DNA from: Carposina sasakii | Taxonomy: Eukaryota > Arthropoda > Insecta > Lepidoptera > Carposinidae | Reading direction: 5' to 3' | Assembly: GCA_014607495.2 (NCBI GenBank) | Contig: CP053163.1 | Span: forward strand, 7,172,716 to 7,236,715 | DNA length: 64,000 nucleotides | Shown: positions 10,731 to 59,224 of the stretch, piece by piece | Position numbering within the stretch: position 1 is the stretch's first letter | Layout of the letters: each line of letters begins with the position of its first letter | The notes under the pieces: model-generated | The model's input: only the letters and a program-made list of their open reading frames with translations | Told to the model about the DNA's origin: nothing | The model's database searches: none | Program-made: the position numbers and the translations under genes

Positions 10731-11023
10731 ATTACCGACTTCAAAAAAAGGAGGAGGTTCTCAATTCGTCGGTATGTATAATATTTTTTTTTTTTTTTTT
10801 ATGTATGTTCACCGATATTTCCGTCAGTTATAAACGGATTTCAAAATTTTTTTTTTGGTTGGATAGAGTTCACTTCTGAGGTGGTCCCATTTTCACCAGG
10901 TCAGGATCTGATGATGGGATCCAGGAGAAATCTAGGGCAACCGCCGAAAATTGTATGCTCGTATGGTGCTTTTGTTACGTAATCATGTCCTACTCAGGTA
11001 TATGCTTCAGGGTGTCAACATCT

Positions 11024-12290
11024 AATGCTGCTGTGCTGATGATGAAGCTACAGAACTCCTTAACGGTTAGGAGTTGGGATACAGTACTGCAATTGGTCAA
11101 TGGAAACTATTAAGTAGTATGTAGGGCTAACGTGTTACTTGAATCAACATCTGATGCTTCTGTGCTGATGATGAAGCTATAGAACTCCTTGACGGTTAGG
11201 AGTTGGGAGACAGTACAGCAATGGGTCGATGAAAACTATTTAGTAGTGTGTAGGGCTGACGTGTTACTTGAATCAACATCTGATGCTGCTGTGCTGATGA
11301 TGAAGCTACAGAACTCCTTAACGGTTAGGAGTTGGGAGACAGTACTGCAATTGGTCGATGGAAACTATTTAGTAGTAAGCAGGGCTAACGTGTTACTTGA
11401 ATCAACATCTGATGCTGATGATGAAGCTACAGAACTCCTTAACGGTTAGGAGTTGGGAGACAGTACTGCAATTGGTCGATGGAAACTATATAGTGGTATG
11501 TAGGGCTAACTTGTTGCTTGTGAGGTATACTTGAATCAACATCTGATGCTGCTGTGATGATGGTTAAGCTACAGAACTCGTTAGCGGTTAAGAGTTGGGA
11601 TACAGTACTGCAATTGGTCAATGGAAACTATTTAGTAGTATGTAGGGCTAACGTGTTACTTGAATCAACATCTGATGCTTCTGTGCTGATGATGAAGCTA
11701 CAGAACTCCTTAACGGTTAGGAGTTCGGAGACAGTACAGCAATTGGTCGATGAAAACTATTTAGTAGTGTGTAGGGCTGACGTGTTACTTGAATCAATAT
11801 CTGATGCTGCTGTGCTGATGATGAAGCTACAGAACTCCTTAACGGTTAGGAGTTGGGAGACAGTACTGCAATTGGTCGATGGAAATTATTTAGTAGTATG
11901 CAGGGCTAACGTGTTACTTGAATCAATATCTGATGCTGCTGTGCTGATGATGAAGCTACAGAACTCCTTAACGGTTAGGAGTTGGGAGACAGTACTGCAA
12001 TTGGTCGATGGAAACTATTTAGTAGTATGCAGGGCTAACGTGTTACTTGAATCAACATCTGATGCTGATGATAAAGCTACAGAACTCCTTAACGGTTAGG
12101 AGTTGGGAGACAGTACTGCAATTGGTCGATGGAAACTGTATAGTGGTATGTAGGGCTAACTTGTTGCTTGTGAGGTATACTTGAATCAACATCTGATGCT
12201 GCTGTGCTGATGGTCAAGCTACAGAACTCCTTAACGGTTAGGAGTTAGGGGACAGTACTGCAATTGGTCGATGGAAACTATACAGGATGT
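11024..12290 (+). repeat. Minisatellite, ten ~129-bp monomers with 650-bp higher-order period
   Basis: The anchor AGAACTC occurs at 11052, 11181, 11310, 11431, 11573, 11702, 11831, 11960, 12081 and 12223. Spacings are 129, 129, 121, 142, 129, 129, 129, 121 and 142, so each of monomers 1-5 recurs exactly 650 bp later as monomers 6-10. The 121 and 142 variants come from an 8-bp loss and a 13-bp gain (the TTGTTGCTTGTGAGGTATAC variant). A 181-codon open frame runs through part of it only because 129 is divisible by three; it has no start context or domain and is not called a gene. Confidence 0.9.
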
Positions 12291-17360: not shown

Positions 17361-17566
17361 AATTCTTCACCAGAGTGGGAATCGAACCCACGACCTCTGC
17401 ATTCCGTGCCAGCGCTCTTACTACTGAGCTACCGGGTCAATTTATCGAATGACAAATTTAACCATCTCTTTCTCAAATTACTTTTTGTCAATGTTATTTT
17501 TCATCCCGATAGCTATACACTAGCGAAAAACTCGGCAAACAAAGCTGAATCCCTCAGCACAATGTT
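17361..17566 (-). repeat. tRNA-headed SINE, copy 2 (most complete)
   Basis: On the minus strand the head shows ACCCGGTAGCTCAGTAGTAAG (A-box region) and GGTCGTGGGTTCGATTCCCAC (B-box and T arm), the internal polymerase III promoter of a tRNA. The body (17440-17563) matches 9765-9907. The tRNA-like head resembles an Arg/Ala-type tRNA but does not fold fully, so it is a SINE and not a tRNA gene. Confidence 0.75.
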
Positions 17567-19540: not shown

Positions 19541-19660
19541 ATGGTAAAATTCGTCATCCGAGTTAATTGACCCGATAGCTCAGTTGGTTAGAGCGCAAGC
19601 ACGGTTTGCGAGAGGTCGTGGGTTCGAGTCCCACTCGGGTGAAGAATTTTTTCTATCTTT
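19541..19660 (+). repeat. tRNA-headed SINE, copy 3, with near-complete tRNA fold
   Basis: Begins with GGTAAAATTCGTCATCCGAG, the inverse of the body edge of the other copies, then a 73-base tRNA-like head at 19569-19641. A cloverleaf can be drawn: acceptor ACCCGA/TCGGGT with a G-G mismatch at the end, D arm GCTC/GAGC, anticodon stem CGCAA/TTGCG with loop GCACGGT (would be ACG, Arg) and T arm GTGGG/CCCAC around TTCGAGT. Position 33 is C instead of the invariant T. Linked to SINE body sequence, so I treat it as a SINE. Confidence 0.65.
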
Positions 19661-26414: not shown

Positions 26415-26696
26415 TGAATTTAATTTTGCTGTGAATGGACGTGCACTTTGATGCAATATTTTAAATTAACAATTGCATAAACAGTGACCTAGATTGGTTT
26501 CAGTGACTTGTTTTTGTTGTGTTAGAATTTTTCCGGACAAATGCTCATTAAAATAAATTAAGTTAAATATGGATAGCCCCTTTAATCGAAGTGGGTTAAC
26601 TGCCCGCTCCCCGCCACCAACCCCTCAAGCACCGAGCCATGCCAGCATCAAGATGAGGAACTGGAGGTTATCCGAACTCCTGAACTCCAGCAGTGG

Positions 26697-27782
26697 ATGA
26701 GCTCAATAGAACAATACCTAAAAGAAATTTACACCATCTCAGGAGAGAGTAAATTGAATACTGAGCAGAAAATGAAAATTGGAAACCTTTGCCGCCAAGT
26801 TGGACACGGAGTTTCGCAAATGGCTGTTCACTATCAGTCTTTAAAGCATAAAGCCATCCTAGCTAACAATAAGATTCAGGAACTACGACAAAAAGAAGAC
26901 CTTACAAAATGCCTTAATGAAATTAAGAATACCATAAAGGAGAGTTCAACTAAAGCAATTGCACCAAATTTATCCTTCTCCGACGTAGTAAAGAAAGGTC
27001 CCAATTTTGTCCAACCCAGCAATTTCAGCTCAATTGCAATCTATCCTGGTGATAAGCTGAAAACCAGTGAGGAAACCAAATCCCTGGTACAAAAAATTCT
27101 ATGCCCTGAACAACTAAAGCTGCAAGTTAGAGGTCTACGTAAGACAAAAAACGGAGGGGTGATAATTAGCACTGAGACCAAAGACGACTTAGAGAAACTT
27201 AGAAACTCAGTCCAGCTCGCATCTAATAACTTGACCGTAGATGAACCCCCCAAACGCCGCCCTAGAATAATAATTATTGGAGTTCCTACAGCTTTACAGG
27301 AAAAGGAAATATACACCTGCATTTATGAGCAGAACCTTGCAGACAAACTTGACCTATCTAAGGAGACTTTCTTGAACTCCATCAAACTTAGCCATAAATC
27401 GGGTAAAAAAGAAGCAGATTACTGCAACTACATACTAGAAGTCCCAGCGACAGTACGGAAAGCTCTTATATCCCAATCAAGGCTATTTATAAATTGGTCC
27501 TCCTGTCCCGTAAGAGACTTCACATTGGTAACAAGGTGCTATAAATGTCAGCAGTATGGTCATGCAGCCAAATCATGCAGGGAGACGTCGTCTATGTGCG
27601 GACACTGCGGTGATATAGGACATAGCATCTTAGAATGCACAAAGAAACAGGAGCCACCAAAATGTGCAACATGTCTTCGATTCAAAAAACCATCAGGACA
27701 TAAAACGGGTGATGCTGAGTGCCCTGCCAAAAAAGCTGCCGAATTCAGGTACATAAATTCAACAGATTATGGAGGCGCCTAA
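26697..27782 (+). CDS. LINE ORF1 protein (zinc-knuckle, Gag-like), N-terminus frameshifted
   Basis: This frame encodes 361 residues of the nucleic-acid chaperone that non-LTR retrotransposons use to package their RNA. The C-terminus carries two CCHC knuckles of form C-x2-C-x4-H-x4-C (from C281 and from C301) and a third cysteine/histidine cluster (C323-C342). The middle (about 190-275) matches the RRM-like/PRE_C2HC region usual in insect ORF1 proteins. The true start is probably the ATG at 26569, whose frame reads a proline/serine-rich leader. A one-base shift near 26650 moves that leader out of frame with the rest, which continues open upstream of 26697. The protein here is therefore probably N-terminally broken. 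ORF2 follows 60 bp downstream. Confidence 0.85.
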   Translation: MSSIEQYLKEIYTISGESKLNTEQKMKIGNLCRQVGHGVSQMAVHYQSLKHKAILANNKIQELRQKEDLTKCLNEIKNTIKESSTKAIAPNLSFSDVVKKGPNFVQPSNFSSIAIYPGDKLKTSEETKSLVQKILCPEQLKLQVRGLRKTKNGGVIISTETKDDLEKLRNSVQLASNNLTVDEPPKRRPRIIIIGVPTALQEKEIYTCIYEQNLADKLDLSKETFLNSIKLSHKSGKKEADYCNYILEVPATVRKALISQSRLFINWSSCPVRDFTLVTRCYKCQQYGHAAKSCRETSSMCGHCGDIGHSILECTKKQEPPKCATCLRFKKPSGHKTGDAECPAKKAAEFRYINSTDYGGA

Positions 27783-27842
27783 GAGCGCCAATTTTAAGTG
27801 TTTATTTTTGGACTTTATTACTTTTATAGCTTATTTTAAAAT

Positions 27843-30797
27843 ATGGATTTACAATTTATTAATGAATTAGATAATATATTTTTATGCGAATCAAATGTAT
27901 GTAAAGTTGAGGACTGTGTCACGTATCTTTCCAGACATCAAAATCCACTAACAGTACTAACTCAAAACATCCGCAGTATTTATAAGAATATAGATTGTTT
28001 AAATGTATTACTTCATAGACTGAAATTTGACTGTGACGTACTAGTTCTAACTGAGTGTTGGTCCCAAAACCGACAGGGTAATATTCCTCCTATGCCGGGA
28101 TATAACGCATTTTATACAACAAAAATGTGTAATAAATGTGATGGAGTAGTAGTTTATGTTAAAAATTCGATTGCGAATGTAACAGTAGAAAATGCGGGGT
28201 TAGATGACTGTAGCGGCTTAATTATAAAAATTGGTTCAAATATAGCTATTATCGCTATATATAGATCTCCTTCCTATCGTAATGTTGACTCTTTTCTTAA
28301 ATCATTGGATAAATTTCTCCAAGACTTGACCTATTTTAAAAATATAATCTTAACTGGGGATATTAATATAAACATTATTCCAGAGTGCTTTGAGGAACAA
28401 AGCCAGGACTACCTTGAAGTTTGCGCAAAACACGGACTTCTTCCAGGTCATAATCTGCCTACGCGTATTAGTGGTTCTTGCTTGGATCACTTCATGATCA
28501 AAACAAATCTACCATGTATCAATCTTGTCACTGAGTCCCCAATAACAGATCACAACGCTGTCCTACTTAGTATAAACCGCACGCTTACTAAGCAAAATCA
28601 CCTGCACACCAAAAGTACACTTAACATGCAAAAACTCGAATATGATTTATGCAATATAGATTTCAGCCCAGTTTTCATTTGTGCTGACGTAAACACCTCG
28701 CTATTGTTTGTAATAAAATCTGTACAAGCAGCAATATTACATAATACGACCGTACATAACGTAAATAGGAAATACCAAAATATTAAACCCTGGATAACAC
28801 CTGGTCTCATTCGATGCATAAGACATAGAGACAAACTGCATCAAAGAGCTAAGCATTATCCCGACAACGTTATAATTCAAGTAACTTACAAAAGGTATAG
28901 GAATTTCTGTAATAATCTCCTTAAAAAACTAAAAATCGCTTATGAAAAGAACATGTTACACGAGGCCGGCAAAAACAGTAAAAAGATTTGGAAATTTGTG
29001 AAAAACGTTACATACTCTACAAAAGAGCATAAATGAAATTCGAATTTACTAACATCCTGCCCGTCACCACATTTGTCAGCTAACAACGTAAATAACTTTT
29101 TTGTGAATGTAGGCAAAAATCTTGCAGAAGACATTTTGAAAAACTCGTACACAAGACTAACTTTTCCTCTGCAAGAATCTGATATAAAGGTAAGCAAAAA
29201 TAAGACATCTTTTGTTATACTAGACACGGACGAAAGTGAAGTAGCACGTATTATCTCAGGACTAAAAAATGATTGTGCAGTGGGCTGGGATAATATTAGC
29301 AATAAAATTCTAAAACAATTTAAACATGTACTGGTGCCCCCTTTAACCTATATTTTTCGTCTGTGCTTGTCTGAAGGAATCTTTCCGAAGTGTCTCAAAA
29401 AAGCTGTAGTGATACCAAGTCATAAGTCTGGCAGTAAAAATACAGTTACCAATTATAGACCAATATCATTACTTCCATCGATCTCAAAAATACTAGAAAA
29501 AATCATCAATAGTAGGTTAATTGATTACTTAGAAAAAAGTCATCTCCTCTCACCTAACCAATTCGGTTTTAGAGCCAAACGATCGACTGATGATGCAGTG
29601 CATTGTCTAACTAACCATATATCAAGCGAACTTGGCAAAGGTAACCTGACCATGGGAGTGTTCCTGGACTTAGCAAAAGCGTTTGACACGGTTTCTATAC
29701 CCGTCCTTTTAAATAAGCTCGAGACTTTAGGTATAAGAGGCACGCAGCTAAAAATATTTACAGACTATCTTCGCAATCGATACCAGTGTGTCAAAATTGA
29801 TAATTTTTATAGTGATGATCATCAGAACACTAACTATGGTATTCCCCAAGGAAGTATATTAGGTCCTACCCTGTTTTTGATTTATATTAACGACTTGTGT
29901 AATATTAATCTGGAACACGGGAGGATTATCTCATATGCTGACGATACTGCACAAATTTTTTCCGCTAACACTACTAATGACCTATTCGAACGCACGCAAC
30001 GAGGACTAAATATTGTAAATAACTGGCTTTAGCGCAATTTATTAACCCTTAATGCTGAAAAAACTAAATATATTTATTTTACAATGCGTAGACCTCAATA
30101 CCCTGTGAATAACCCACTATATGCACACCAACACCATAGTACACCAGACAACACAATATGCAATTGTCCGACTCTACAAAAATCCAGTAGCATGAAGTAT
30201 TTAGGTGTGATAATTGACGACACACTCTCTTTCCGGGAACATATTCAAAATGTTGTTGGTAGAGTACGTTAACTATTGTATATATTCAAAAAATTACGTC
30301 TTATCGCAGACCCACAGCTAGTTACTCAAGTGTATCTAGCTTTATGTCAATCTATCATACAATATTGTATTAGCTCATGGGGTGGTGCACATAAAACAAT
30401 CATATTACCCCTCGAAAGAGCTCAACGAGCAATCCTGAAAGTGGCTACTTTCCGTCCTTTCTTATTCCCTACCTGCCTTTTATATAAATCCTGCAATGTT
30501 TTAACAGTCCGTCAGCTTTTCATCATTCATATAGTGCTAAAACAGCATAAAACACTTGCCTACAGTCATGATATTACTAACAAAAGACAGAAAGATATAG
30601 TATGCACTGTTATCTCGACACCATTTAAATTTACCAACAGATTTTTTGCCTATATAGGTCCCTTACTTTATAATAGGATAAATAGATTAAATAATATATA
30701 TGACCTTACATATTTCCACTGTAAGAAAGTAGTTGATAAGTACTTAAAAACTTTATGTTATGATGACACAGAAAATCTGTTATTAGTTGATAAGTAA
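27843..30797 (+). pseudogene. LINE ORF2: endonuclease-reverse transcriptase with three in-frame stops
   Basis: One frame of 984 codons encodes the polymerase that nicks DNA and reverse transcribes element RNA. The endonuclease part (about 30-250) shows LTQNIRS, LVLTECW, IYRSPS, LTGDIN and SPITDHNAV, matching the exonuclease-endonuclease-phosphatase fold. The reverse transcriptase shows NYRPISLLPSISKILEK, FGFRAKRST, FLDLAKAFDTV, GIPQGSILGP and the catalytic YADD at codons 698-701. Stops interrupt it at codon 398 (TGA, 29034), codon 730 (TAG, 30030) and codon 810 (TAA, 30270), and the frame is otherwise maintained. The stops look like single-base changes. The product would be truncated before the RT domain, so this copy is not autonomous. 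Confidence 0.92.
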
Positions 30798-39572: not shown

Positions 39573-42196
39573 CTAAAATCCAGTTAGGATAAAAAATAGG
39601 TCCGTCAAAGTACAATCGTTGTATTTCACATAGTGAGAGGAGGTTGTATTACTTCTGTATCCTTTTTCGTATTTCTTATTCATCTCGTAGAATATATCCC
39701 AAAATGCATATCTATCATGAAACATTCTCGTTCCAATACTTAACTCTAAATCGACATTTAGGTAATGTAAAGACTCAGCGGTAACCGGTGGCCAAATCAT
39801 CGGGATAATTTCCGTGGTAATTGGCGTAGGATTGCTAAAAAAGAGGAGTTACATTTTTAAAATAGATTTTGTACTTTCCTTTTCTGTGAAAGATTTAGTG
39901 CATTGAACAACACTCCCAGCACACGCATGTCCTCTCTCACACAGTCCATCCAACATTTCTTCGTTCTACCTCTTCCTTTATCCACATTCATGCACAATGC
40001 TCTCATCCCGTCGCTTTACATGTTTTTTTTTTCAAATTCAAAATCATTTATTCGACATGAAAGCATTAACACTTGTTTGTCGATTGTCTAATTATATGTT
40101 ACTTTCTATGTTCGCACCCCAAAAATGAAACCGCTACCAAACAAAAAAGGAGGTGAATTTAAACAACCCAAAAATAAATAAATCGCAAAGCTTTTGCTTT
40201 GGCAACGGTCACCACCCCAAGGTGCGATTTGTTACGGTCTGTCAGGCATAAGTTAGCGATTCGGGGCTTAATAGCCACCAACGTGGAGAATAAGAGTTGA
40301 AGTCGCCTAAAGACGAAATCCAGAAGAGCTGCTACACAGTTCTCCTTTATGGCAAAACCAACATTAGGTCTGACACACCGCATGATTCTACTATTTACTG
40401 TTACACTATCTCAGTGAAGTGTCACTGCTTGGAAGAAGAAATAGCAAGAAAACTCCCAGCGACACAGTCAAAACTAAGTAACATATTAACAAAAGAATCT
40501 TACTTTGGATAAGATATCAGATAGTAACACTTAACTCATTTAGTGTGTATAAATTCAATTATCATAACATAATTAATTTAAATTCATATAAATTACATGC
40601 CCGTACCAAGACGGTTACTTCGTAACTTGTCTGTGATCGGTGCGAAGGTGAAGGACACATCAACTTACCCATATTTTACAAAGTTAGAAAATAAAGCAGT
40701 AATCCGATTAATCATAAGTTGATCCTCAGGAGTGATAGGATCAGTCAAAAATGAAACATCAAATAAATATCCAATTTCATCGTTATGAGCTGCACCTGGC
40801 ATTGTGATCCTATTAACTGTTTTTACGTAATTTCTTTGACCATCGTGGGTAAAAATATAAAAATATAGGTTGCTAACTCCATTATCCAAATACTTATGGA
40901 TTGTTCGTAACGATGGATATGTATATATTATATCCGTGAAAAAAATAACCAACTCTTTTATAATTTTAGGGCTGAGGGAATTGTCTCCAATATAAAACTG
41001 ACGAACTAATTTTTCCAGTTTTTTCATTTGTTTAGAATCAAAATCAAATGCTATATTCAATATATCATGAAATGGTCGCAATGATTCCACATTTTTCAGT
41101 CGTTGAATCCAATAACCAATTGTACTTAGTGCTTCAAAATTTGTATGACCAATTAAAACATCCATGTCCTTGACTTTTGCTCTACCTTTATTAACCGGAT
41201 AATCTGTAATAAATCTTTTTTGACCAAAGTCCTTTTCTACGCAAGCTGTAAATGTTATATTTAGGTCCAATGTTGCTTTTGTTATGAGATCTGGATGGGA
41301 TCTAGAAAGAAAGTTGACAGCTTCATTAAGGTCATCAGTTGTTATACCAAGATATTGTGCTAATTTCAATGCTGACGTTTCGTCACCTTCTCGTGTAATA
41401 CCAGGAATAAGGGAGCAACCACCTTGTAGTATTACTCTATTATATAATTTCTCATAAGACGATTGTAGATGAAAGTCCACAGATACAGATCCAGCACTCT
41501 GTCCATAAAGTGTTATAAGATTTCGGTTACCGCCAAAGAACTCTATGTTGTCATATATCCATTCAAGGGCAATATGTTGGTCCTTCAAACCTTGATTTCC
41601 AGGTACTTCAGGAGTATTTAGGCACATAAAACCGTAAGCCCCGAGTCGGTAGTTTATTGTTATCAATATTATCTCGTGATCAACTAGAAATTTAGGTCCA
41701 AATGTGTATCGTCCAGAAAATCCTATCGAAAATTGACCACCATGAATTGATATTAACACAGGCAATCTATTAATATCACTAGCCGATCTTGGCACATATA
41801 TATTCAGATGTAGACAGTCTAAAGTACCTGTTATTGTCAAATTGAATTCTTCTCTTTGAGGGCATTTTGTAGAATCGTCAAAAGCTTTAAATACACCATC
41901 AAATTTAGGAAAAGGTATGGCTTCCTGAAAGAATGCTAAGGCAAATATAAACACGCACCTCCGTATAGATTTTAAAGTTAAAACTATAGTCTGTAAGTCA
42001 ATAAAAATATATTTTCTGCTTAAAATTTACTCACCCCAAAAGGGTTATCCGGATCCACTGTAGCATAAGGAATTCCCATGAACATATCATATTTAGCGTC
42101 ATCCGACTCTAAACCCTGAATTAAACCAACATTTGTCTGGATATACATACACTTGATATTTTTAAATAAACATATAAATATAAGAATTCGCCACAT
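39573..42196 (-). CDS. Carboxylesterase (type B), three exons, complete
   Basis: Predicted secreted serine hydrolase that cleaves carboxylic esters. Exons are 42196-42035, 41924-40669 and 39834-39573, with GT/AG borders, giving 559 residues, the usual family length. The start was chosen at the methionine of the signal peptide MWRILIFICLFKNIKC; the frame is open 19 codons further upstream. Family landmarks in order: GLIQGLESD and GIPYA, CLHLNIYVP, the oxyanion-loop HGGQF, NYRLGAYGFM, the nucleophile elbow GQSAG with S197, E318 in NFEALS and H434 in AAHNDEIGYLF. The triad is complete. The two introns are 110 and 834 bp, the longer holding repeat debris. The neighbouring gene at 42850 has the same exon plan, so both arose by tandem duplication. 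Substrate cannot be told from sequence; pheromone or odorant breakdown, hormone metabolism and detoxification are all seen in the family. Confidence 0.93.
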
Positions 42197-42849: not shown

Positions 42850-44890
42850 TCATATTTCACATACAGTATTGTTATTTCCGCTTTTATAAAATTTAATATA
42901 TTTTCTATTGAGCTCAAAAAAAATATCCCAAAAAGCAATCCTATCGTGAAACATACCGGTTCTGGAAGTCAGCTCATTATCTATGTTCAGGTAGTTCTGA
43001 TTGTCTCTGGAAACTGGAAGCCATTTTACTGGAGTAAGGTCGGTTATAGTCGGTGTAGGATTTCTGAAAATAGTGAAAATCCTTGATATTATTATGCCTT
43101 ACACCTAAAGGTATTTTATTATCTTTCTTCAATACAAAAAAAATACATTGGTAAAGACAAACAGGTATTGTTTTATAAATGTTTTTATAAGTTGTCTGTC
43201 TTAGAAAAAGCTTTAATACGTCCTATACTTAATTGTACCTACCCAAATCTCACAAAGTTAGAAAATAACTTGGTCATCCGGTTAACAGTTAGTTCATCAT
43301 TATGTGTAAGAGGATTTTTCATAAATGAAGGATCAAATAAATAGCCGAGGTCATCGTTATGTGTAGCGCCTGGCATTGTCATGTTTTTAATAGTTTTCAA
43401 AAAGTTTCTTCCTCCTTCATAAGAAAATTTGTAGAGGAATATATTTTGTGCATCATATTCGATAAACTTTTTGATTGTTCTTATTGATGGATATATAAAC
43501 GCAATATCAGAAACGAAATTTGCTATATCTATTGCAACATCAAAGCTTACCGATCGTTCACCAATATAAAAATGTCTGACTGTATTTTCCATCTTGATTA
43601 ATCGTTCATTATCAAAAGAAAATTTTTTGCTCATGTAATAATGAAATGGGTTAAATGTCTCATAATATTTTTCAGATTTGGAATCAACTAGTAATAGCGC
43701 TTCAATCTCCGAAACACCTACTATAACATCAACATTTTTAACTTTAGCTCTATTAACATTAACCGGGAAGTCACTTATAAACCTGTTTTGCCCAAAATCA
43801 TGTTCCACGCAGGGTCGCCAAGAAATATTCAATTTATCAACTATTTCTATCACGGTCTCAGTTTTTATTTTTGAAAGAAAACTAAGTGCTCGATTTATAT
43901 TTGATGCGTCTAACCCTAGGTGTTTAGCAACTATCAAAGGAATTGTTCTGTTACTTTCATTCACTTCCATTAAAGAAACACCACCTTGTAATATTACTCT
44001 TTTATACAATTTATGATGAGGCGATTGTAGATGTAAATCTACGGACATAGCGCCAGAACTCTGACCATAAACGGTTATTGCTCTTATGTCGCCGCCAAAG
44101 TATTCTATATTTTGATATATCCATTCCAAGGCAATTTGTTGATCTTTAAGACCTTGATTTCCGGGTACTTTTGGTATATCTAGACACATAAATCCGTAAA
44201 TTCCAAGTCGGTAGTTTAATGTCACCAATATTATGCTATTTGCTACTAAATATTTCGGCCCAAAAACATACTTTGAGGAGAAACCGAATTCAAACTTGCC
44301 GCCGTGGATTGATACCAGAACTGGTAGTTTATATGTTGTATTTGCTGATTTTGGTACGTAGATATTCAAATGCAGGCAGTCTAAGCTTCCAATTATAGTG
44401 TTATTATACTCTTCTCGTTGTGGGCATGCCACTGAATTATTGGCGTAAAATAAATGTTTTAACACTGGAAAAGGTAAGGCTTCCTGAAATTCATAAAATT
44501 ATCTCTTTATATTGACATTTTACGTTATTTGTTTACAGTTACCGATACAATATTGTAAACAGTTTTCTATTTAAGTTTAAACTGTCTTGTTGGTATATAA
44601 TAATTAATAAGGAAAATACTATTTATAGGCCTTCAAGACTTAAGTTAGTCAAAATGTTAATATTCTACTAAAACTATAATCGTATTATTTCTTGTACATA
44701 TTTTCTTAAAAGGCTAAAAGAGACTTACCCCAAATATATTTTCAGGGTTCACAATAGCATATGGAATGCCCAGAAACTCATAATATCCATCTGTGTTGTC
44801 CAGCCCTTGGATCAATCCAACATTTGTTTCTACAACGAGACTACATTCAAATAACTTTAAAAAACAAATTAAAATCAAAAATGTATCCAT
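42850..44890 (-). CDS. Carboxylesterase (type B), three exons, complete
   Basis: Second esterase of the tandem cluster. Exons are 44890-44729, 44483-43243 and 43063-42850, with GT/AG borders and introns of 245 and 179 bp, giving 538 residues. The start is set at the signal peptide MDTFLILICFLKLFEC; eleven more codons are open upstream. Landmarks: GLIQGLDNTDG, GIPYAIV, CLHLNIYVP, HGGKF, NYRLGIYGFM, nucleophile elbow GQSSG with S196, E315 in SEIEALL and H429 in ATHNDDLGYLF. The elbow has Ser where the first gene has Ala, still within GxSxG. Exon borders fall at the same codons as in the first gene (after NIFG, and within the RFG/NPTP codon), strong evidence of duplication. Catalytically competent by residues; substrate unknown. 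Confidence 0.93.
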
Positions 44891-50608: not shown

Positions 50609-50613
50609 CTTAC
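50609..50613 (+). repeat. Retroelement target-site duplication, 3' side
   Basis: CTTAC, repeated exactly at 58998-59002. Five bp is usual for BEL/Pao and other LTR elements. Confidence 0.9.
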
Positions 50614-50817
50614 TGTACGGTGAGGTCCGTACATACGAAATGATAGGCCGTAGTTAAGATATAAAATAGAGAAACTTTATTAATTCCAAACTATGGCTAA
50701 AATGGTATGATAATGAGTACACGCGGGTTGATTGGTGTCCGAACGTGAACTGGTTATAAAAGGCACAATAGGGTAAAAATGCTGACCGCGTGATAATGTA
50801 CGCTGTTGCACCGTACA
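50614..50817 (-). repeat. 3' LTR (204 bp)
   Basis: Ends TGTACGGTG/CACCGTACA, a 9-bp inverted repeat. I find no difference from the 5' LTR at 58794-58997. A minus-strand AATAAA lies at 50676-50681, a plausible polyadenylation signal. Confidence 0.95.
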
Positions 50818-50835
50818 TGCTCCCACGGGAGAAAA
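50818..50835 (-). promoter_or_regulatory. Polypurine tract, short
   Basis: On the minus strand GTGGGAGCA lies directly before the 3' LTR, as expected for the plus-strand primer. It is short and imperfect. Confidence 0.5.
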
Positions 50836-50969
50836 GATGATGAAGATGGTAATGTGAGTGAAAGTGATATAAGGTGATCGACAATATTTTCTTATATTAG
50901 GATGATCATACAAAGTAGTTAATGTAATAAACATCAACGTGAGGTTGACTTATAAAAATAGTTATATTA

Positions 50970-53900
50970 CTAAAATCTAACTCGTTCAACGATAGGCGAG
51001 TTAGCAATGTTGACGCGCTCACACACAGTAGGGGCAAGTCTGTGAACCCCTTTATTGGAACACTGAACACTTTGGTCTGCCACTTCACTTGTACACGGAT
51101 CACTTTGCTCTGCTTTTACACTCACGCACTGGTCATTGCTACGATAAGTGACGGGCGCGTTCTCCAGCGCTCGCCGCAGCTGCATGCTGGAGCGGCGCGC
51201 GCGCATTCGGCGCACGCAGCACACTACTGCAGTCGCTCCCGCCGCACACAACACCAAATAAAAGGCGACGTAATGATGAATGTCGTGGTAAGATATCTGG
51301 TCTACTGGAGCGGTTTCGCTCTTCATCTGGTCTATTTGGTTTTTTAGATGCTTCAAATCGACCGTGTTGTCTACGGCCGTTGAATCGACCCTGCTCACAG
51401 GAATTGTCAAATTGATGACATTATTAATCGGTGGAATGTCTAACTGCACTATGTCCGCTTGCAGTCTTACTTCATTCGATGACTGTTTATGTGAGAGAAC
51501 AGTCATATCTTCCGTTTTAATAATACAGTCGTCGCCTAATGAGACGATGCCGACCTTGCTAAGTCGATCTGCGGTAACTCGATGCCCACATATAATTCTT
51601 ATCGGACACTCGCCGCAACAAAAATACAGAAATGTATTCAATTTGCTTAGTTGCATCCACGTGTCTCTGCACGGAACTAATTCTGTCTTACAGCGTTGCG
51701 TTTTTTGATCTTTAAAGCATAAACTCTCATCAGATCTCATGATATAAATTGGTTTTTGCAAATGACACAATTGAGTGTGGGTCTCAAATTGTATACATAA
51801 TTGAATGTCATTCTCTGATAATGGTACATACGAATCTTTTTGTAGGTTCAATGCAATGTAACTTGATATGGGAACTAGGGTAACCATATCGTTATTGATA
51901 TTTTGTGGAAGTGGTATTATTTTAAAAATTTCGTAGTTATCTCTGCTTACAAGAGGAATTTTTATCTCAAAAATAAGATACTCTGTGGTCATTCTGGCTC
52001 TTACTTTTAACAGATTATATATTTTTGGTAGTTCTATCTGTATGTTATCTATAGGTAAACACAGATCTTTTGTAAGTTGACTTGATATGGTGCTTAATTC
52101 TTTTAACAGCTGCTCGGGTGTCAAAAGATGAATGTTAAACTTTCCATAGTAAATATTTGTTACAGAATCTAATAAGGTACTTTGTATATTTTTCAAACTC
52201 ATCAAAATGCTGTTAGCGGTGATAGAAGTTAGAGCGAATTCATTGGTAGTTTCAACTCTGGCAATTTCGGTTTTCAGTGCATTAGCTATGTTTTCTATAT
52301 TATTGAGATGATGTGTGAATATTTTGTGCTGCTTGTTCATCGATTCTTCTACTCGTTTTAGTAAATTATATTCCGACTCTACTACGGAAGTTTGGTTTTT
52401 CCATAATAAAGCAAGATGTTTTTGGTTGCTTCTAATTAAGTTGATATCCTTTTCATATTTTTCGGCGAATTGGTCGTCGAGTACACCGAATAAACTATGT
52501 GCAATATTACCTACGCCATTGATAAGCCCACGACGACGTAATCGTAATTGTCCGCCGGGAATCTGCCGACCTAGCAAAACCTTATTGTAGTGCTCTAGTT
52601 CTGTTAATCCGTGGCGTAATTGTAATAATATTAAATCGCAGTGCGTTTTGATATCAGATTTTATACATATGTCTTCCAGATGACTTATGTAGTTACTATA
52701 CAGATTATTTCCTTGCCAGTACGGACTCATGTCAAAATACACTATAAGATTCCATGTGTCTCGAACAAGGTGCATGTTTGATATCTTATCGAAATACATG
52801 CCTTGGTTTATATTCATACTTGATATATTATATGTACAATGAATTGGTGGTACGATAAACATAAATAGCATAAGCGCCACTGTTATAAGATAACACAAAC
52901 CTTTACCATTTCGTTTTGTTGTGGTCGATTTAGTGATTTTGTCGACGCTGCTGTTTAATGATTGTTGGTTGTTTTGTTGGGTAGCAGGTATAATGTTAAA
53001 TTGGTTTGTTTGGTTGTTGGTAGGAAGTATTGATATTTTTAGGACCGGTCTTTTGATGATTCCACCTTTGGTTTTCAAGGTAACCACCCGGACATAACCG
53101 TCTTTTCCTGGATGAAGCTCCATAACTCGTCCAAGAGCCCACTTTCCTGGCGGTAAGTTGGCGTCATGTATAATTACTACGTCATTAATTTCAACATTTT
53201 TCTGAGTATTCTGCCACTTGGTTCGTGCAGTCAACTGAGTTAGGTATTCACTTTTCCATCTCTTCCAGATATCTTGGTATATTTTTTGAGTGAGTTGCCA
53301 TCTGGTTCGTTCGTCCTTTTCGGTTTCAATAATGGTCAATAGTGGTCCGCTTGACAAGAAGTGTGACGGGGTGAGATAATCTACATCGTTAGGGTCTTCG
53401 CTGATTGCACATAGTGGTCGGGAATTAAGGCAGCTTTCTAATTGCGCTAACAACGTAGAAAACTCTTCGTAGGTTAACTTCTGCTCTCCTATAACTCTTC
53501 GCAAATGGTACTTCAGGCTTTTTACAGCCGCCTCCCAAAGACCTCCAGCACTAGGCCATGAAGGTGCGTTGAAGTGCCATTGTATTTCCATATTGGTCAG
53601 TTCTGTGTAAAATTCAACATCCATCGTTGACTTTATGTCAAAGATTTCTTCTTGCAGCTTTCTGTTAGCTTTTACAAAATTGGTCCCGTTGTCACTATAG
53701 ACATGGCGAGGAGCTCCCCGTCGGGCGGCAAGCCTACGAAGAGCTGCCAGGAACGATGACGCCGTCAAGTCGGATACTAATTCAAGGTGTACAGCCTTTG
53801 TTGCCATGCACACAAAGACCGCCACATAGCCCTTGGTGCACTTGACACCGCGACCTTTGGCTGATTTGACTTCTATAAACCCTGTAAAGTCAACCCCCGT

Positions 53901-56900
53901 ATGGTAAAAGGATCGGGTTGCATTAGTCCTCGATTCTGGTAGATCTCCCATTATTTGGTTTTGTGTGGTAGGATTTATTCTCCTACATCTGGTACAATTT
54001 CGTAGATTACTTTTGACAATGCTGTTACCTCCTATTATCCAAAACTGCTGCCTGAGCCAAGCTAGAGTCAGACGAGCACCCCCATGGAAGGTCATTTGAT
54101 GACCTTGGTCAATAAGCATATTTGTTAGAGGGTGCTTATGAGGTAAGATTATTGGATGTTTCATATTTTCGTGAATATGCGCGTTATTAATACGTCCGCC
54201 CACTCTCAATAATCCTTCTTTATCAATAAATGGTTTCAAGTTCAGTAATTTGCTTTTGGTGTGAACTTGGCTAAAAGTTTTTATGTGGGAGATATCATCT
54301 TCAAATTCAGTTTTTTGAACATATTTAAACAAAATGGTTTTAGCTTTTCTTAGCTCTGGTAGGGTTAAATAAGATGGTTTGTTTTGACGTTGCAACTTTA
54401 CCCGTAACATCCAGGCAAGGACGCGCGTAATACGAGTAAATTTGCTGTATCTTTGAAATAAATAATATATTACATCACTTTCGTGTTGCTTTATTATAAC
54501 GTTAATATGTAAACAAGTTTTAAGTTCTTGATCTGTAATAAATTGAAATGAATCCTGTTTCCTTTCATGGTTAAACGTGGAAAGCCAGCTAGGTCCATTC
54601 CACCATAATGAATGTTTCGTAAGCTGTTCTATTGTGATGCCCCTGCTAGCACAGTCGGCAGGGTTGTCACTTGATTTTACATAGTTCCAATTATTTGGTG
54701 GTATTATATCTGTGATTATTGACACTCGGTTAGCAACGAATGCCTTCCATCTGTTTGGATCTCCATGGAGCCAACCAAGAACAGCTGTAGAGTCTGACCA
54801 ACCGAAGATTTTGGTATCATAGGCGGACAGACATTCCTTTACTATTTTCATTAGTTTTGATAGTAACTGAGCAGCGCATAATTCTAATCTAGGTAATGAT
54901 ACATTTTTCTTAACTGGAACTAGTCGGGATTTGGCAGCCACAATGATTACTGATGCTTGTTCTGACTGATTATTCCTATTGACCTTACAGTATATTACAC
55001 TAGCATATGCCTTAGTAGACGCATCACAAAATCCATGTAATTCTATGTGGTCGTTTTCATGGATTTGTAGCCATCTTGGTACTTGAATGGCATTTATATT
55101 CTCAAGGTCTTTTCTGGTCTGTTGCCAATTAGCGCTCATATTATTTGGTAAATGATCATCCCACTCGAGAGCTTGAAGCCAGCTCTCTTGGAATAAAAGT
55201 TTTAGACTTGTCGTCACTGGTGATAGCCATCCCAAGGGATCGAAGATCTTGGAGATGTCAGATAGGAGTGATCGCTTAGTTGGTTTACATTGCGTGCTAT
55301 TTATTTTTAGCTGAAAACTAAATTGGTCGTAATGTGGTTCCCAGCGTAATCCAAGTGTTTTGGTAGATTCTTGGTGTTTGAAATCAAATGCTTGGCTTTT
55401 TAATTTCATTGGTTGAACGTCATCCAATAGCTCTGATTCATTCGATGACCACTTTCGTAAATTAAAACCTCCTAATTTTAGTAAGGTGATTAGTGTGGAT
55501 TTTAGCTGTTTAGCTGATTTGATATCATGATGACCATGTAGCAGATCGTCCATGTAGAAGCTATTTTCTAAAACTTTTGCTGCTTCAGGAAATTTTAGAG
55601 CTTCATCCTTGGCTAACTGTTTGAGAGTCATCATTGCTAAAAATGGTGCGGCTTTGGTGCCGTATGTTACCGTTGACAATTGATATGAACTTAATGGTTG
55701 AATCGGAGAATCTCTCCAAATAATCTTCTGGTATGGCTGATCATCATCATGGACAAGAATTTGTCTGAACATTTTCTCAATGTCAGCCGTGAAAGCTATC
55801 TTGTATTGCCTCCACTTAATGATAAGTGATAATAAATCTTGTTGCAGATTTGGTCCGCGGTACATAAGATCGTTCAAACTATTTCCTGTAGACGTTTTTG
55901 CTGACGCGTTGAATACTACTCGTATCGGTGAAGTAGATGAGTCGTCACGTAACACACAATGGTGAGGTAAATAACATTCAGGTGTCTGGTTACCTGAGCA
56001 CTCACGCATGTGACCTAGATTGTAATATTCGCTAATAAATTCATGATAACGTTTTGAAATGGTAAGATTTTTGGTAAATTTTCGTTCTAGCTGTTGAAAT
56101 TGAGCTACTGCTTTTGGTTTCGAGGTTCCCATTTTTTCATTGATATCTGGTTTTAGTGGTAACCTAACAACATAACGTCCATCTGGTTGACGTATCGTCT
56201 CTGACTGGTATTGCAAGATGCATTGTTGATCTTCGATTGACAAAGCATTTGATGTGTTATCTGCGATGTCCTCAATTTCCCAAAATCTTTGAATGTCCTT
56301 TAAATTAACCATAAGGACGCTTCTACCATACGGATTAATGTTTGCACACTTTCCGCTTATCATCCAACCCAGTTGCGTCTGTTGTGCAATATGGTGAGAT
56401 GATGTTTGACGGATCAGGCCCGGAAGAATAATTAAAGTATAAACTTCTACGCTTAATATAAGATCGATTGGTTGGCTTTTATAAAATTCCGGGTCTGCTA
56501 ATTTGATATTTTTCTGGTACGGCCATGACGGTTTTTCAAATGTTTGTCGTGGTAAATTAGCATCATGGATCATGTTTTTCATAACAAATGCTGTAGTGGT
56601 GAAAGTGAAATTGTTGTATATTGAAGATGCAGTGATCTTTATATTGCCTTTGCTGTGGTTTGCTTTCGATCCGTCACCAAAGACTAACCACTCGCACCGT
56701 TGCCTTGGTAGGCATAATCTTTGCGCGGCGTTCTCTGTAATCAGAGATGATTGTGCGCACGGGTCGACGAGAGCTCGCATAGTATGGTAGGATCCATCTG
56801 CTGCTTGAATGTTAATTTTCGCAGTTGCTAAAAGGGATTCAGTTGTATTTTGAAGTGGTGATTGTGAAACGCATGCCAAAGATTTATTATGATTTTTCTC

Positions 56901-58505
56901 TTTTTCCGGCATATCAATGGTCATATTTTTGGTAGTTATATAAGCGTCATGTAGCAGCGTGTTATGTTTGTCGCCACAGTGTCGGCATGTTTTGTCAGAT
57001 AAGCATTCTTTTCCATTATGGTTATAAAGACAATTGACACATAAATCCATTTTCGTAACTGTTTTCCGTTTCGCATCGGGTTTCGATTCTAAGAATACCT
57101 TACATTGGTATAAGGCGTGATGATTACTGCATAGTGGGCATTTACGTGGTAAAATTGATGCACCTTTGGCAGTAGAATGATTTATAAATAATTTATTTTG
57201 TATAGTTTTATAAGAATTTTTAGGATTAGCTACCGAAGAGTTCCATGGCTGTCTCCTGTAATTATCTTGTGGTAATGATTTCGATGAATCTTGTTTGCGA
57301 CGCGATGATTCAAGTGAAGTAAATTTGCTTTCTAAGAAATTTAGAAAGTCGCTAAGGATTGGTAGGTCCCTAGGATTCTGCAGGGACTCTATGTAGTCAT
57401 GATGTGTTTCAGTATCTAGCTTCTGCGTAAGCAAATGAACGACAAGTGGGTCCCATGTTGATATATCTGTACCCAAACTTTTGATTGCATTTAAACATTC
57501 GTTGACGGTGTCATGAAGTTTTTTGATCTGCGCGGCTGATTGCTGCTGTATGGTCGGTAGTGATAACATAATATTAACATGCGAGCTGAATATTAATTTG
57601 GTATTATTATATCGATGGTTAAGTATATCCCAGCTGATTTGGTAGTTGTCAGTCGAAATCCTTAAATGTTGTACTAACTTTTCTGCTTCTCCCCTCAATT
57701 TGCTTTTTAAATATTGCATTTTTTGAGCACTCGACAAACATTTATTGGTATGGATAGATTCTGTGTACAAATCTTTAAATGATAACCACTGGTGATAATT
57801 TCCGCTGAAGATTGGGATGTCAATTTTTGGTGTAGATTGCACCTGGTGAGAAATTGCACACATCTTGCTATTTATATCTCTTTTGATATTTAGAAACTGT
57901 TTTTCATATTCAGTAAAAGCCAAATCATATTCCTCATTTTCCTCAAATTGTTCGCAATCGATCTCCCAATGCAAGGAGTCGATAGCAGACCACCGTGATT
58001 GCACTGATTTTATTACATCTTCATATTCCCATTTTTCGGAAATACCTTCAAGATCAACATTGTTAATAGTACGAGAGAATGCTTTAAAATTACTTTTTTG
58101 TTTACGCAACATCTCCTCCAACTTGCTAGCGTTGCCCTGGGGAGTGTATGTTGCCAATGGTTGCCTGTTACTGATACTAGCTGCTGGCTGCGATTCGTCT
58201 ACTACGGGTTTGGTGAAAGTAGTAGAAGGTAATGGAAGCGATAATTGTATGTAACTCTTACAGTTGTTGTAATATTCTAAAGTCTTTTGGTATAGGTTAT
58301 CTTTAAAATATGGTATCTCTGGGTCCTGGTAGTTACGCAAAGCAATATCGTTGCTTTCAAACTCGTTCCAGTATGTTTGCAAAGTCTCCAATTGCCTATT
58401 AATGAAATGAACGGTTCTACGGTCACGCCCCGTTTTTTTAAAGGAAGACAGGAGTTGCTCGATTGCAGATTTTAACTGCTCTTGGTTTGCTAAAAGATCT
58501 TCCAT
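50970..58505 (-). CDS. Gag-Pol-Env polyprotein of the BEL/Pao element, 2511 aa
   Basis: One open frame without stop. Gag: DUF1759-like region from about residue 226 to 370, then cysteine/histidine clusters around 455-520 (CRHCGDKH from C507). Protease: LVDPCAQSS with D581, where DSG or DTG would be usual. RT: catalytic YMDD at 984-987. RNase H: GFCDAST with D1161. Integrase: HHCC zinc site ending C1504/C1507, core acids D1539, D1605 and E1658. A DUF5641-like tail ends near 1828. Envelope-like part: hydrophobic signal-like segment 1870-1890, cleavage motif RLRRR ending R1992, then GLINGVGNIAHSLFG as a candidate fusion peptide, coiled-coil-prone stretch about 2030-2110, many cysteines at 2270-2350, membrane segment about 2412-2433 and a basic, ~78-residue tail. 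The envelope layout matches the errantivirus/baculovirus F type. How Env is separated from Pol is not known. Confidence 0.93.
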   Translation of the reverse strand: MEDLLANQEQLKSAIEQLLSSFKKTGRDRRTVHFINRQLETLQTYWNEFESNDIALRNYQDPEIPYFKDNLYQKTLEYYNNCKSYIQLSLPLPSTTFTKPVVDESQPAASISNRQPLATYTPQGNASKLEEMLRKQKSNFKAFSRTINNVDLEGISEKWEYEDVIKSVQSRWSAIDSLHWEIDCEQFEENEEYDLAFTEYEKQFLNIKRDINSKMCAISHQVQSTPKIDIPIFSGNYHQWLSFKDLYTESIHTNKCLSSAQKMQYLKSKLRGEAEKLVQHLRISTDNYQISWDILNHRYNNTKLIFSSHVNIMLSLPTIQQQSAAQIKKLHDTVNECLNAIKSLGTDISTWDPLVVHLLTQKLDTETHHDYIESLQNPRDLPILSDFLNFLESKFTSLESSRRKQDSSKSLPQDNYRRQPWNSSVANPKNSYKTIQNKLFINHSTAKGASILPRKCPLCSNHHALYQCKVFLESKPDAKRKTVTKMDLCVNCLYNHNGKECLSDKTCRHCGDKHNTLLHDAYITTKNMTIDMPEKEKNHNKSLACVSQSPLQNTTESLLATAKINIQAADGSYHTMRALVDPCAQSSLITENAAQRLCLPRQRCEWLVFGDGSKANHSKGNIKITASSIYNNFTFTTTAFVMKNMIHDANLPRQTFEKPSWPYQKNIKLADPEFYKSQPIDLILSVEVYTLIILPGLIRQTSSHHIAQQTQLGWMISGKCANINPYGRSVLMVNLKDIQRFWEIEDIADNTSNALSIEDQQCILQYQSETIRQPDGRYVVRLPLKPDINEKMGTSKPKAVAQFQQLERKFTKNLTISKRYHEFISEYYNLGHMRECSGNQTPECYLPHHCVLRDDSSTSPIRVVFNASAKTSTGNSLNDLMYRGPNLQQDLLSLIIKWRQYKIAFTADIEKMFRQILVHDDDQPYQKIIWRDSPIQPLSSYQLSTVTYGTKAAPFLAMMTLKQLAKDEALKFPEAAKVLENSFYMDDLLHGHHDIKSAKQLKSTLITLLKLGGFNLRKWSSNESELLDDVQPMKLKSQAFDFKHQESTKTLGLRWEPHYDQFSFQLKINSTQCKPTKRSLLSDISKIFDPLGWLSPVTTSLKLLFQESWLQALEWDDHLPNNMSANWQQTRKDLENINAIQVPRWLQIHENDHIELHGFCDASTKAYASVIYCKVNRNNQSEQASVIIVAAKSRLVPVKKNVSLPRLELCAAQLLSKLMKIVKECLSAYDTKIFGWSDSTAVLGWLHGDPNRWKAFVANRVSIITDIIPPNNWNYVKSSDNPADCASRGITIEQLTKHSLWWNGPSWLSTFNHERKQDSFQFITDQELKTCLHINVIIKQHESDVIYYLFQRYSKFTRITRVLAWMLRVKLQRQNKPSYLTLPELRKAKTILFKYVQKTEFEDDISHIKTFSQVHTKSKLLNLKPFIDKEGLLRVGGRINNAHIHENMKHPIILPHKHPLTNMLIDQGHQMTFHGGARLTLAWLRQQFWIIGGNSIVKSNLRNCTRCRRINPTTQNQIMGDLPESRTNATRSFYHTGVDFTGFIEVKSAKGRGVKCTKGYVAVFVCMATKAVHLELVSDLTASSFLAALRRLAARRGAPRHVYSDNGTNFVKANRKLQEEIFDIKSTMDVEFYTELTNMEIQWHFNAPSWPSAGGLWEAAVKSLKYHLRRVIGEQKLTYEEFSTLLAQLESCLNSRPLCAISEDPNDVDYLTPSHFLSSGPLLTIIETEKDERTRWQLTQKIYQDIWKRWKSEYLTQLTARTKWQNTQKNVEINDVVIIHDANLPPGKWALGRVMELHPGKDGYVRVVTLKTKGGIIKRPVLKISILPTNNQTNQFNIIPATQQNNQQSLNSSVDKITKSTTTKRNGKGLCYLITVALMLFMFIVPPIHCTYNISSMNINQGMYFDKISNMHLVRDTWNLIVYFDMSPYWQGNNLYSNYISHLEDICIKSDIKTHCDLILLQLRHGLTELEHYNKVLLGRQIPGGQLRLRRRGLINGVGNIAHSLFGVLDDQFAEKYEKDINLIRSNQKHLALLWKNQTSVVESEYNLLKRVEESMNKQHKIFTHHLNNIENIANALKTEIARVETTNEFALTSITANSILMSLKNIQSTLLDSVTNIYYGKFNIHLLTPEQLLKELSTISSQLTKDLCLPIDNIQIELPKIYNLLKVRARMTTEYLIFEIKIPLVSRDNYEIFKIIPLPQNINNDMVTLVPISSYIALNLQKDSYVPLSENDIQLCIQFETHTQLCHLQKPIYIMRSDESLCFKDQKTQRCKTELVPCRDTWMQLSKLNTFLYFCCGECPIRIICGHRVTADRLSKVGIVSLGDDCIIKTEDMTVLSHKQSSNEVRLQADIVQLDIPPINNVINLTIPVSRVDSTAVDNTVDLKHLKNQIDQMKSETAPVDQISYHDIHHYVAFYLVLCAAGATAVVCCVRRMRARRSSMQLRRALENAPVTYRSNDQCVSVKAEQSDPCTSEVADQSVQCSNKGVHRLAPTVCERVNIANSPIVERVRF
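52869..52890 (-). promoter_or_regulatory. Candidate splice acceptor upstream of the Env module
   Basis: On the minus strand TTATCTTATAACAG ends at 52880 and is followed nine bases later by an in-frame ATG at 52871 (residue M1879) inside the signal-like segment. With the donor-like sites at 58509-58541 it could yield a spliced Env message, as in gypsy-type elements. Sequence-only inference. Confidence 0.3.
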
Positions 58506-58793
58506 CCTTACTGATATGATAGTAAAATTAGAAAGATCTTACTTGATATTCTGGAACCGACAGTGATGACTCCTTTTTCACTGACGACACGTGGCCGTGT
58601 GGTTGTCCACGTGCTCGGAATCCTCCAAGTAATCCGAATAATTGTAGAAATCCAGATAATAGTTTGGTAGTCCAGGCACTGGTTAATGGCACTGAACTTT
58701 GGTTTGTGGTCACTATTTAATAGCACTAATGGTTTATGGTCACTGGTTTTTAGTCAATTTTCACATACGATTGACTCGCTCGAAGGACCACGA
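58506..58793 (-). other. Retroelement leader with donor-like sites
   Basis: 288 bp between the 5' LTR and the polyprotein ATG. Two minus-strand GTAAG motifs, CAAGTAAGAT (about 58536-58545) and CAGTAAGGATGG just before the start codon, resemble 5' splice sites. A 72-codon frame in the leader has no recognised domain. Confidence 0.5.
58779..58790 (-). promoter_or_regulatory. Primer-binding site, probably tRNA-Tyr
   Basis: The plus strand reads CTCGAAGGACCA, three bases from the 5' LTR. It ends in CCA like a charged tRNA, and CTCGAAGGA matches the 3' end of animal tRNA-Tyr as I remember it. The tRNA identity is from memory. Confidence 0.65.
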
Positions 58794-58997
58794 TGTACGG
58801 TGAGGTCCGTACATACGAAATGATAGGCCGTAGTTAAGATATAAAATAGAGAAACTTTATTAATTCCAAACTATGGCTAAAATGGTATGATAATGAGTAC
58901 ACGCGGGTTGATTGGTGTCCGAACGTGAACTGGTTATAAAAGGCACAATAGGGTAAAAATGCTGACCGCGTGATAATGTACGCTGTTGCACCGTACA
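58794..58997 (-). repeat. 5' LTR (204 bp)
   Basis: Same sequence as 50614-50817. On the minus strand CTTTTATAACC (about 58931-58941) is a possible TATA element. Confidence 0.95.
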
Positions 58998-59224
58998 CTT
59001 ACTAATATTATGAACGTGAGAGTTTGTAAGTATGGATGGATGGATGTTTGTTACTCTTTCACGTAAAAACGGCTGGAGCGATTTTAATAAAATTTGCTAT
59101 GGAGTTAGCTGACACCCCGGATTATAGGCTACTTTTTATCCCGGAAAAATATTTTTATCCCTGATAATTTCGACATTTTGTTTTTTCTGCCATCCACGCG
59201 GACGAAGTCGCGGGCGTCTACTAT
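58998..59224 (+). mobile_element. Helitron-like element interrupted at its tip by the retroelement
   Basis: CTTACTAATATTATGAACGT, CGTAAAAACGGCTGGAGCG, TTTTTATCCCGGAAAAATA and GACGAAGTCGCGGGCGTCTA match the other copies. Its first six bases (TCTTAC) are at 50608-50613 on the other side of the insertion. The 3' end is diverged (CTAT). The first five bases are the target duplication. Confidence 0.65.

Follow-up and report, generated by a model that had tools for sequence, protein, structure and literature searches.

We analyzed a 64,000-nucleotide (nt) stretch of the genome of the lepidopteran Carposina sasakii (assembly GCA_014607495.2, contig CP053163.1, positions 7,172,716 to 7,236,715 of the forward strand), referred to below as the window. 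Positions 50614-58997 contain, on the minus strand, a complete BEL/Pao element of 8384 nt that encodes Gag, Pol and an F-type envelope protein (Env) in a single frame. A reading of this DNA made from its letters alone (the sequence-only reading) had placed the boundaries exactly to the base and had called the element apparently intact, with identical long terminal repeats (LTRs) and no stop codon. That description holds: the flanking direct repeats are 204 nt each and 100% identical, they begin with TGTAC and end with GTACA on the minus strand, the 5-nt duplication GTAAG abuts the element on both outer flanks, and one open frame of 2511 codons runs from 58505 to 50970. Pfam searches with four overlapping pieces of this frame found, in order, DUF1759, a weak protease match, RVT_1, Peptidase_A17, Integrase_H2C2, rve, DUF5641 and Baculo_F, with E-values of 5e-43 for DUF1759 (Gag), 1e-48 for Peptidase_A17, 2e-34 for DUF5641 and, in the same frame, 4e-34 for Baculo_F. 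The match of this structure to the earlier description is far beyond chance. The names Orbi_VP5 (Pfam) and lone7_assoc_B (NCBIfam), which also came up, were set aside as probable coiled-coil noise. The parts of the element, in sense direction, are:

58998..59002: target-site duplication GTAAG, upstream in sense direction
58794..58997, minus: 5' LTR, 204 nt, TGTAC...GTACA, with AATAAA at LTR position 137
58773..58790, minus: primer-binding site with the 13-nt core TGGTCCTTCGAGC
58506..58793, minus: 5' leader, 288 nt
50970..58505, minus: Gag-Pol-Env open frame, 2511 codons plus stop
57381..57809, minus: Gag domain DUF1759 (Pfam)
56949..57140, minus: three Cys-His boxes, residues 456-519
56667..56786, minus: aspartyl-protease-like stretch, Pfam match under the curated cut-off, motif LVDPCAQ
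55458..55829, minus: reverse transcriptase RVT_1 (Pfam), YMDD at residue 984
54789..55280, minus: Peptidase_A17 (Pao) domain (Pfam)
53970..54134, minus: integrase zinc-binding domain (Pfam)
53652..53915, minus: integrase core match (Pfam), D1539 and D1605
53025..53306, minus: DUF5641, end of Pol (Pfam)
50973..52907, minus: F-type envelope, 645 residues (P0001)
52836..52907, minus: signal-peptide-like segment, with no in-frame ATG directly in front
52530..52544, minus: cleavage motif RLRRR
52467..52529, minus: fusion-peptide-like segment GLINGVGNIAHSLFGVLDDQF
51213..51269, minus: membrane anchor, Env residues 547-565
50614..50817, minus: 3' LTR, identical to the 5' LTR
50609..50613: target-site duplication GTAAG, downstream in sense direction

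The third acidic residue of the integrase, assigned by eye, is the glutamate of GLWE near residue 1658, outside the Pfam match. The domain order is that of Belpaoviridae (Gag, protease, reverse transcriptase, ribonuclease H, integrase), the protease match being weak and below the cut-off, and PF05380 occurs in nearly all of the best 120 Pol matches listed. A Pao backbone, the narrower term of the sequence-only reading, goes beyond these matches, the Pfam domain having only its name from Pao. Both the LTR (204 nt) and the element (8384 nt) fall within the sizes given for that family (LTRs of 0.2-1.2 kb, elements of 4.2-10 kb; PMC8742986). According to the accessible text of PMC5408687, BEL LTRs end in TG...CA and errantivirus LTRs in AGT/AnT; the termini found here are of the BEL type, and the element has neither errantivirus LTR ends nor a Metaviridae Pol. 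The leader of the window copy is 34 nt shorter than the 322-nt leader shared by the three other family copies in which a leader was read. The primer core TGGTCCTTCGAGC, which we take to fit the 3' end of transfer RNA (tRNA)-Tyr, adjoins the LTR in 13 of the 13 LTR-paired copies described below (TGGTCCTTCGAGCCGGAT in two), and the primer site has no match to tRNA-Arg(ACG), the sole tRNA-Arg of the window and the only isoacceptor compared. The profile of the International Committee on Taxonomy of Viruses (ICTV) gives the Belpaoviridae primer site as complementary to tRNA-Arg or tRNA-Gly (PMC8742986).

The last 645 residues of the frame, for which the sequence-only reading had proposed an envelope and a profile search as the check, match Baculo_F (PF12259) with a score of 118.5 against a cut-off of 24.1 bits. 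Their layout is as it was described: a hydrophobic start, RLRRR followed by GLINGVGNIAHSLFGVLDD, an anchor at residues 547-565, a basic stretch after the anchor and a long tail. At the cleavage site RLRRR is followed by GLINGVG, and RGLI is invariant in 18 aligned Env rows. Among env pieces from the host genome, GLI[ND]..[GS] occurs in 35 of 45 and is directly preceded by RX[KR]R, a narrow pattern that misses RLRRR, in 26; five more divergent pieces all have an RX[KR]R site, and one of the five has RGLI. In sequence, Env also matches a solved “fusion protein” (9w4d, E 9e-15). A predicted model of Env, of moderate confidence, contains a long helix at residues 162-253, in keeping with the heptad region of F-type envelopes; when it was compared with BFVD, named baculovirus F proteins held four of the top five ranks (best E 1e-26), and the model also matches pneumovirus F. 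Env is thereby predicted to have a class I F fold, and PDB rows beyond F proteins were not taken as absence of other folds. The profile match, the 9w4d match and the predicted fold together reject the idea that the 3' region is unrelated to envelopes. A profile search with the 18 Env rows listed 68 proteins, none of them named as a baculovirus or errantivirus protein; IMG/VR viral contigs, searched with Env, the Env alignment and a piece of Pol, yielded no relative, and the annotated phage records searched yielded no match.

Copies, age and selection in the host genome

A search of the 399-Mb assembly (31 contigs) with Env gave at least 70 env matches (68 of 237 candidates were scored), so that envelope-bearing BEL/Pao elements, which the sequence-only reading had thought few, are not few in this host. 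We read 50 of these matches, namely 45 copies and five divergent pieces. The 45 copies form 12 families at 85% DNA identity, with one to seven copies each and env identities of 97.8-99.6% within families, and the five divergent pieces form three further families, none near the twelve, for a total of at least 15; the two divergent pieces tested both match Baculo_F. Open frames of at least 2400 residues hold 14 of the matches, two of these with a stop inside the match, and the longest such frame has 2563 residues. The element's own family has five copies, 98-99% identical in env. Whether other copies lack env had been raised as a check, and all four further copies carry it, one being cut off at Env residue 388. 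In one copy of the family (C10) the 5' position where an LTR was expected is without one.

Of 17 copies examined for LTR pairs besides the window copy, 12 have one, giving 13 pairs with the window; the five others were dropped, C10, C23, C5b and C25b because no repeat was found and C22b because its 86% repeat was spurious and lacked LTR ends. Once their ends are set exactly, the 13 pairs show 2 substitutions in total over about 3040 nt. A 5-nt target duplication was found by script at nine pairs and with exact ends at three more, and that of C14b is 4 nt, or 5 if the end is placed one base earlier; the duplications differ among copies. At a mutation rate of 2.9e-9 per site and generation, the two substitutions give the LTR-paired copies a mean age of about 110,000 generations, an estimate that is biased young because the copies outside the window's family were chosen for long open frames. 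The sequence-only reading had taken the identical LTRs of the window copy as a sign of youth. The identity is real, and because it spans only 204 nt it bounds the age of that copy weakly, at less than 2.5 million generations (95%, same rate). Recent activity is supported by the 98-99% identical copies, the low LTR divergence and the different target duplications.

The selection test covered the 11 families that have at least two copies, 44 copies in all, and counted each variable codon once. The neutral nonsynonymous fraction for env is 0.719. Singletons in env comprise 117 nonsynonymous and 118 synonymous changes (dN/dS-like ratio 0.39), and variants common to two or more copies comprise 9 and 21 (0.17); the integrase part of the same pieces gives 0.38 for singletons and 0.21 for shared variants, and the pooled ratios are 0.35 for env and 0.36 for integrase. 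Values lie below neutral in 11 of 11 families for env and in 10 of 11 for integrase, with no single family driving the result, and stops (2 and 2) and partial-gap codons (6 and 8) occur in both env and integrase, respectively. The env gene has been under purifying selection while the elements multiplied, as strict as that on integrase, an enzyme needed by every insertion; multiplication by reinfection would be expected to leave such a pattern. Natural selection seems to keep env working, and this hints at spread by infection. The earlier suggestion of recent and possibly infectious activity is supported for recency, and for infection only indirectly, by way of the selection on env.

Relatives of Pol and Env

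Among public proteins, Env finds its best matches in many lepidopteran genera, and the matching protein often holds integrase or DUF5641 as well; the aphid Uroleucon contributes six weak matches (E 1e-11 to 4e-10), and many matches span only part of the query. Pol and Env were both matched by BLASTP in 38 of 185 public proteins, one of which is doubtful. In a quick Pol tree of 121 rows, where a row counts as env-linked if the same protein has an Env BLASTP match, all 18 env-linked rows fall in one clade of 46 rows (SH-aLRT 98), and env is absent by BLASTP from all 75 rows outside it. The env link of P0080 is possibly spurious, owing to overlap, and P0080 lies inside the clade anyway. Organism names are carried by 37 of the 45 other rows in the clade, and from their genus names we take all 37 to be Lepidoptera. 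Since a row that lacks env may reflect a truncated gene model, losses of env within the clade cannot be counted. In the Env comparison the families of the host are interleaved with those of other genera, so either these families diversified before the host species arose or they have crossed hosts.

The element reads DPC at the protease active site, as does P0067 (Colias eurytheme), the public protein nearest to it; 15 other rows of the Pol clade read DQG. The D-T/S-G motif occurs in none of the 16 clade rows examined and is present in 15 rows outside the clade.

The sister group to the main env clade consists of P0150, P0116, P0140 and P0109. Weak BLASTP Env matches were found in P0150 and P0116 (46 and 45 bits) and a signal-like start in P0140, and Pfam did not find Baculo_F in these three at E 0.01; the group may carry an older, diverged env. 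Separately, the Env proteins of P0017 and P0021 (Heliothis virescens and Spodoptera exigua) are 90% identical over 585 residues, a likeness for which transfer between hosts is a possible explanation. The gene models P0008 (Euphydryas) and P0049 (Arctia) fuse env with a Dock TPR region and an odorant receptor, and are probably annotation errors.

Spread of the element and its place among known systems

We read the element as a lepidopteran endogenous retrovirus that belongs to BEL/Pao (Belpaoviridae) and has Gag, Pol and an F-type class I Env in one frame, with an Env most likely made by splicing and a predicted capacity for infection; we give this reading a probability of roughly 0.8. Gag-Pol would be translated from full-length RNA and Env most likely from a spliced RNA, joined from a donor in the leader to an acceptor within the signal-peptide codons, and in the element's family the join itself would make the AUG of env. 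Cleavage at RLRRR would then expose the fusion peptide, and Env would give particles access to other cells, chiefly germ cells. The candidate splice sites (a slash marks the exon-intron border) are:

58537..58545, minus: candidate splice donor CAA/GTAAGA, exon ending at 58543, intron beginning 37 nt upstream of the gag ATG
52879..52880, minus: candidate splice acceptor ...TTATAACAG/TGGCGC, intron ending at 52880

No in-frame ATG lies just before the Env signal peptide in this element. The leader site CAA/GTAAGA is the top-scoring donor of the first 2.2 kb; its score is descriptive because the scan returned nothing at the first cut-off, which was then lowered. CAA or AAA followed by GTAAGA starts 33-43 nt before the gag ATG in six of nine distinct leaders, a seventh has CAA/GTAAGG at -104, and two have no donor-like site. 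The leaders mostly align little beyond the primer site and this donor island, although three share a stretch of 114-129 nt. The top-scoring acceptor, in a search limited to the region near the env start, ends at 52880, and the candidate join would put the donor's final A before TG, giving an ATG in the env frame and a product that begins MALMLFMFIVPPIHC. For errantiviruses of the springer subclade, PMC12992720 reports an exon consisting of the dinucleotide AU. These features suggest that Env is probably made from a spliced mRNA.

A less likely route, though one to be taken seriously, is that Env is released from a Gag-Pol-Env polyprotein or read from an internal start. The uninterrupted frame of 2511 codons would suit a polyprotein, as would the other matches in frames of up to 2563 residues, and in several families an in-frame ATG just ahead of the hydrophobic core of the signal would suit an internal start. 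Both, however, leave aside the donor-like site kept in seven of nine leaders that are otherwise mostly unlike, and the position of the best acceptor of the tested stretch, which falls at the signal peptide and would create a start codon in this family; the unusual protease motif also counts against this route.

It is improbable that the element is an ordinary BEL/Pao retrotransposon that moves within the cell and whose env is an inherited passenger no longer needed. Such a passenger would fit the position of Env in frame behind Pol without a start codon directly in front, the many partial public matches, and the ICTV profile, which describes replication by virus-like particles inside the cell and belpaovirid env-like genes of unknown function (PMC8742986). 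It fits poorly with the depletion of amino-acid changes in env, equal to that in integrase and found in 11 of 11 families tested, and with the open env frames that several families show in many young copies. Retention of env for the host, as in the Drosophila gene Iris, rather than for spread of the element is very unlikely. Domesticated F-type envelopes do occur in insects, and one public match is named Iris-A, but a host gene is expected at a single locus, whereas the selection found here acts inside families that are young, have several copies and, where tested, carry flanking LTRs, and it acts equally on integrase; we reject a domesticated gene on these grounds. Finally, the idea that Pol and Env were joined by an assembly error, or by chance insertion next to an unrelated env, has no favorable point that we found. 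It is refuted with near certainty by the recurrence of the Pol-Env order in other copies of the family and in other families, where the selection-test copies have integrase in frame upstream of env, and in the 38 public proteins (one doubtful).

Several points weigh against the endogenous-retrovirus reading itself. The splice scores come from a matrix of our own making, one other family has a higher-scoring donor elsewhere in its leader, and in 11 other families the best-scoring acceptors are not all followed by an in-frame start, the acceptor being clear only in the element's family. Motifs such as the protease DPC are likely to be inactivating, according to the accessible sections of PMC554778. 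The copies used in the selection test were ranked by similarity to the window Env, which may favor less damaged copies, and the BFVD list also contains chu-related and other glycoproteins at weaker E-values (8e-15 for the best so named chu-related protein). Within the ingroup, moreover, the Pol and Env trees are weakly comparable: those of 14 rows share two groupings, within one of which different pairs are joined, and most Pol branches are unresolved. In Mantel comparisons of Pol with Env, 580 of 5000 permutations reach the observed value with 23 rows and 28 of 5000 with 14 rows; on all 28 rows none of 5000 does, a signal that is driven by distant rows and is weaker without five of them.

The closest known system is roo (Semotivirus roodrosophilae; Drosophila, Belpaoviridae), which is likewise of the BEL group, has one frame and has an env homologous to that of errantiviruses, as set out in PMC5408687 and PMC7642597; the comparison is with these published descriptions. 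The combination of an F-type env with a BEL backbone, to which the sequence-only reading had drawn attention as unusual, is real, and with roo as precedent it is not new in itself (PMC5408687, as far as accessible). The same two sources hold that roo acquired its env once Drosophilidae had diverged, which makes a separate or an older gain probable for the lepidopteran env. Errantiviruses (gypsy, ZAM, springer; Metaviridae) share with the element an F-type env, a furin-like site and a fusion peptide, but the element differs in its BEL/Pao backbone, its TG/CA LTR ends and its Env in the Pol frame, and it is not an errantivirus because Pol and LTR ends differ. In the accessible portion of Senti et al. 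(2025), the D. melanogaster lineages reported to carry env-F number 17, all of them gypsy/gypsy Metaviridae, and no Belpaoviridae lineage is named.

Other BEL/Pao elements have also taken envelope genes. Anakin, a Pao element of mosquitoes, took one and multiplied, but that envelope is attributed to chuviruses, whereas the Env described here matches Baculo_F, with chu-related matches weaker; Tas and Cer7, of nematodes, carry env-like genes attributed to phlebovirus- and herpesvirus-like sources. These attributions are those of PMC7642597. Among Lepidoptera, the BmERVs of Bombyx and the AyLTRs of Antheraea are LTR elements, some with an F-like env, and BmERV-47/187 lie near roo by reverse transcriptase; in the accessible parts of these studies (PMC6085415, PMC6563192), no full-length env frame is found in the Bombyx elements and neither work describes a BEL/Pao lineage with env. 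The kind of element is already known from roo. The apparent novelty lies in the clade within Lepidoptera, in how many young families a single genome holds and in the outcome of the selection test; in the open-access literature searched, Repbase not being searched, we found no report of these or of this lepidopteran lineage.

Somewhat short of even odds, we would tentatively go further and propose a third insect retrovirus lineage, in Lepidoptera, beside errantiviruses and roo: a BEL/Pao clade that keeps its F-type Env across many moth and butterfly families, with Env-dependent infection in at least 15 families of one genome and a spliced Env whose start codon can be made at the junction. The insect endogenous retroviruses in the literature covered are mostly errantiviruses of flies, and a young BEL/Pao lineage of many families, with env as constrained as integrase, offers another natural system in which to ask how a retrotransposon becomes and stays infectious. 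It would equally serve to ask what confronts the PIWI-interacting RNA (piRNA) defenses of lepidopteran ovaries, and with the within-family selection test, genome sequences suffice to test for env-dependent spread.

Other features of the window

Outside the element, the window contains the following features:

10886-12222: tandem array of about nine 129-nt units, with a 191-codon open frame inside
17367-17438, minus: second tRNA-like stretch, found by Rfam alone
19568-19643, plus: tRNA-Arg(ACG) gene (ARAGORN and Rfam)
26586-30797, plus: distinct frames, one weakly matching an endonuclease and one matching reverse transcriptase, probably from a non-LTR retrotransposon
40668-42026 and 43242-44498, minus: a pair of long exons or genes for carboxylesterase (COesterase in Pfam, E 6e-87 and 9e-84)

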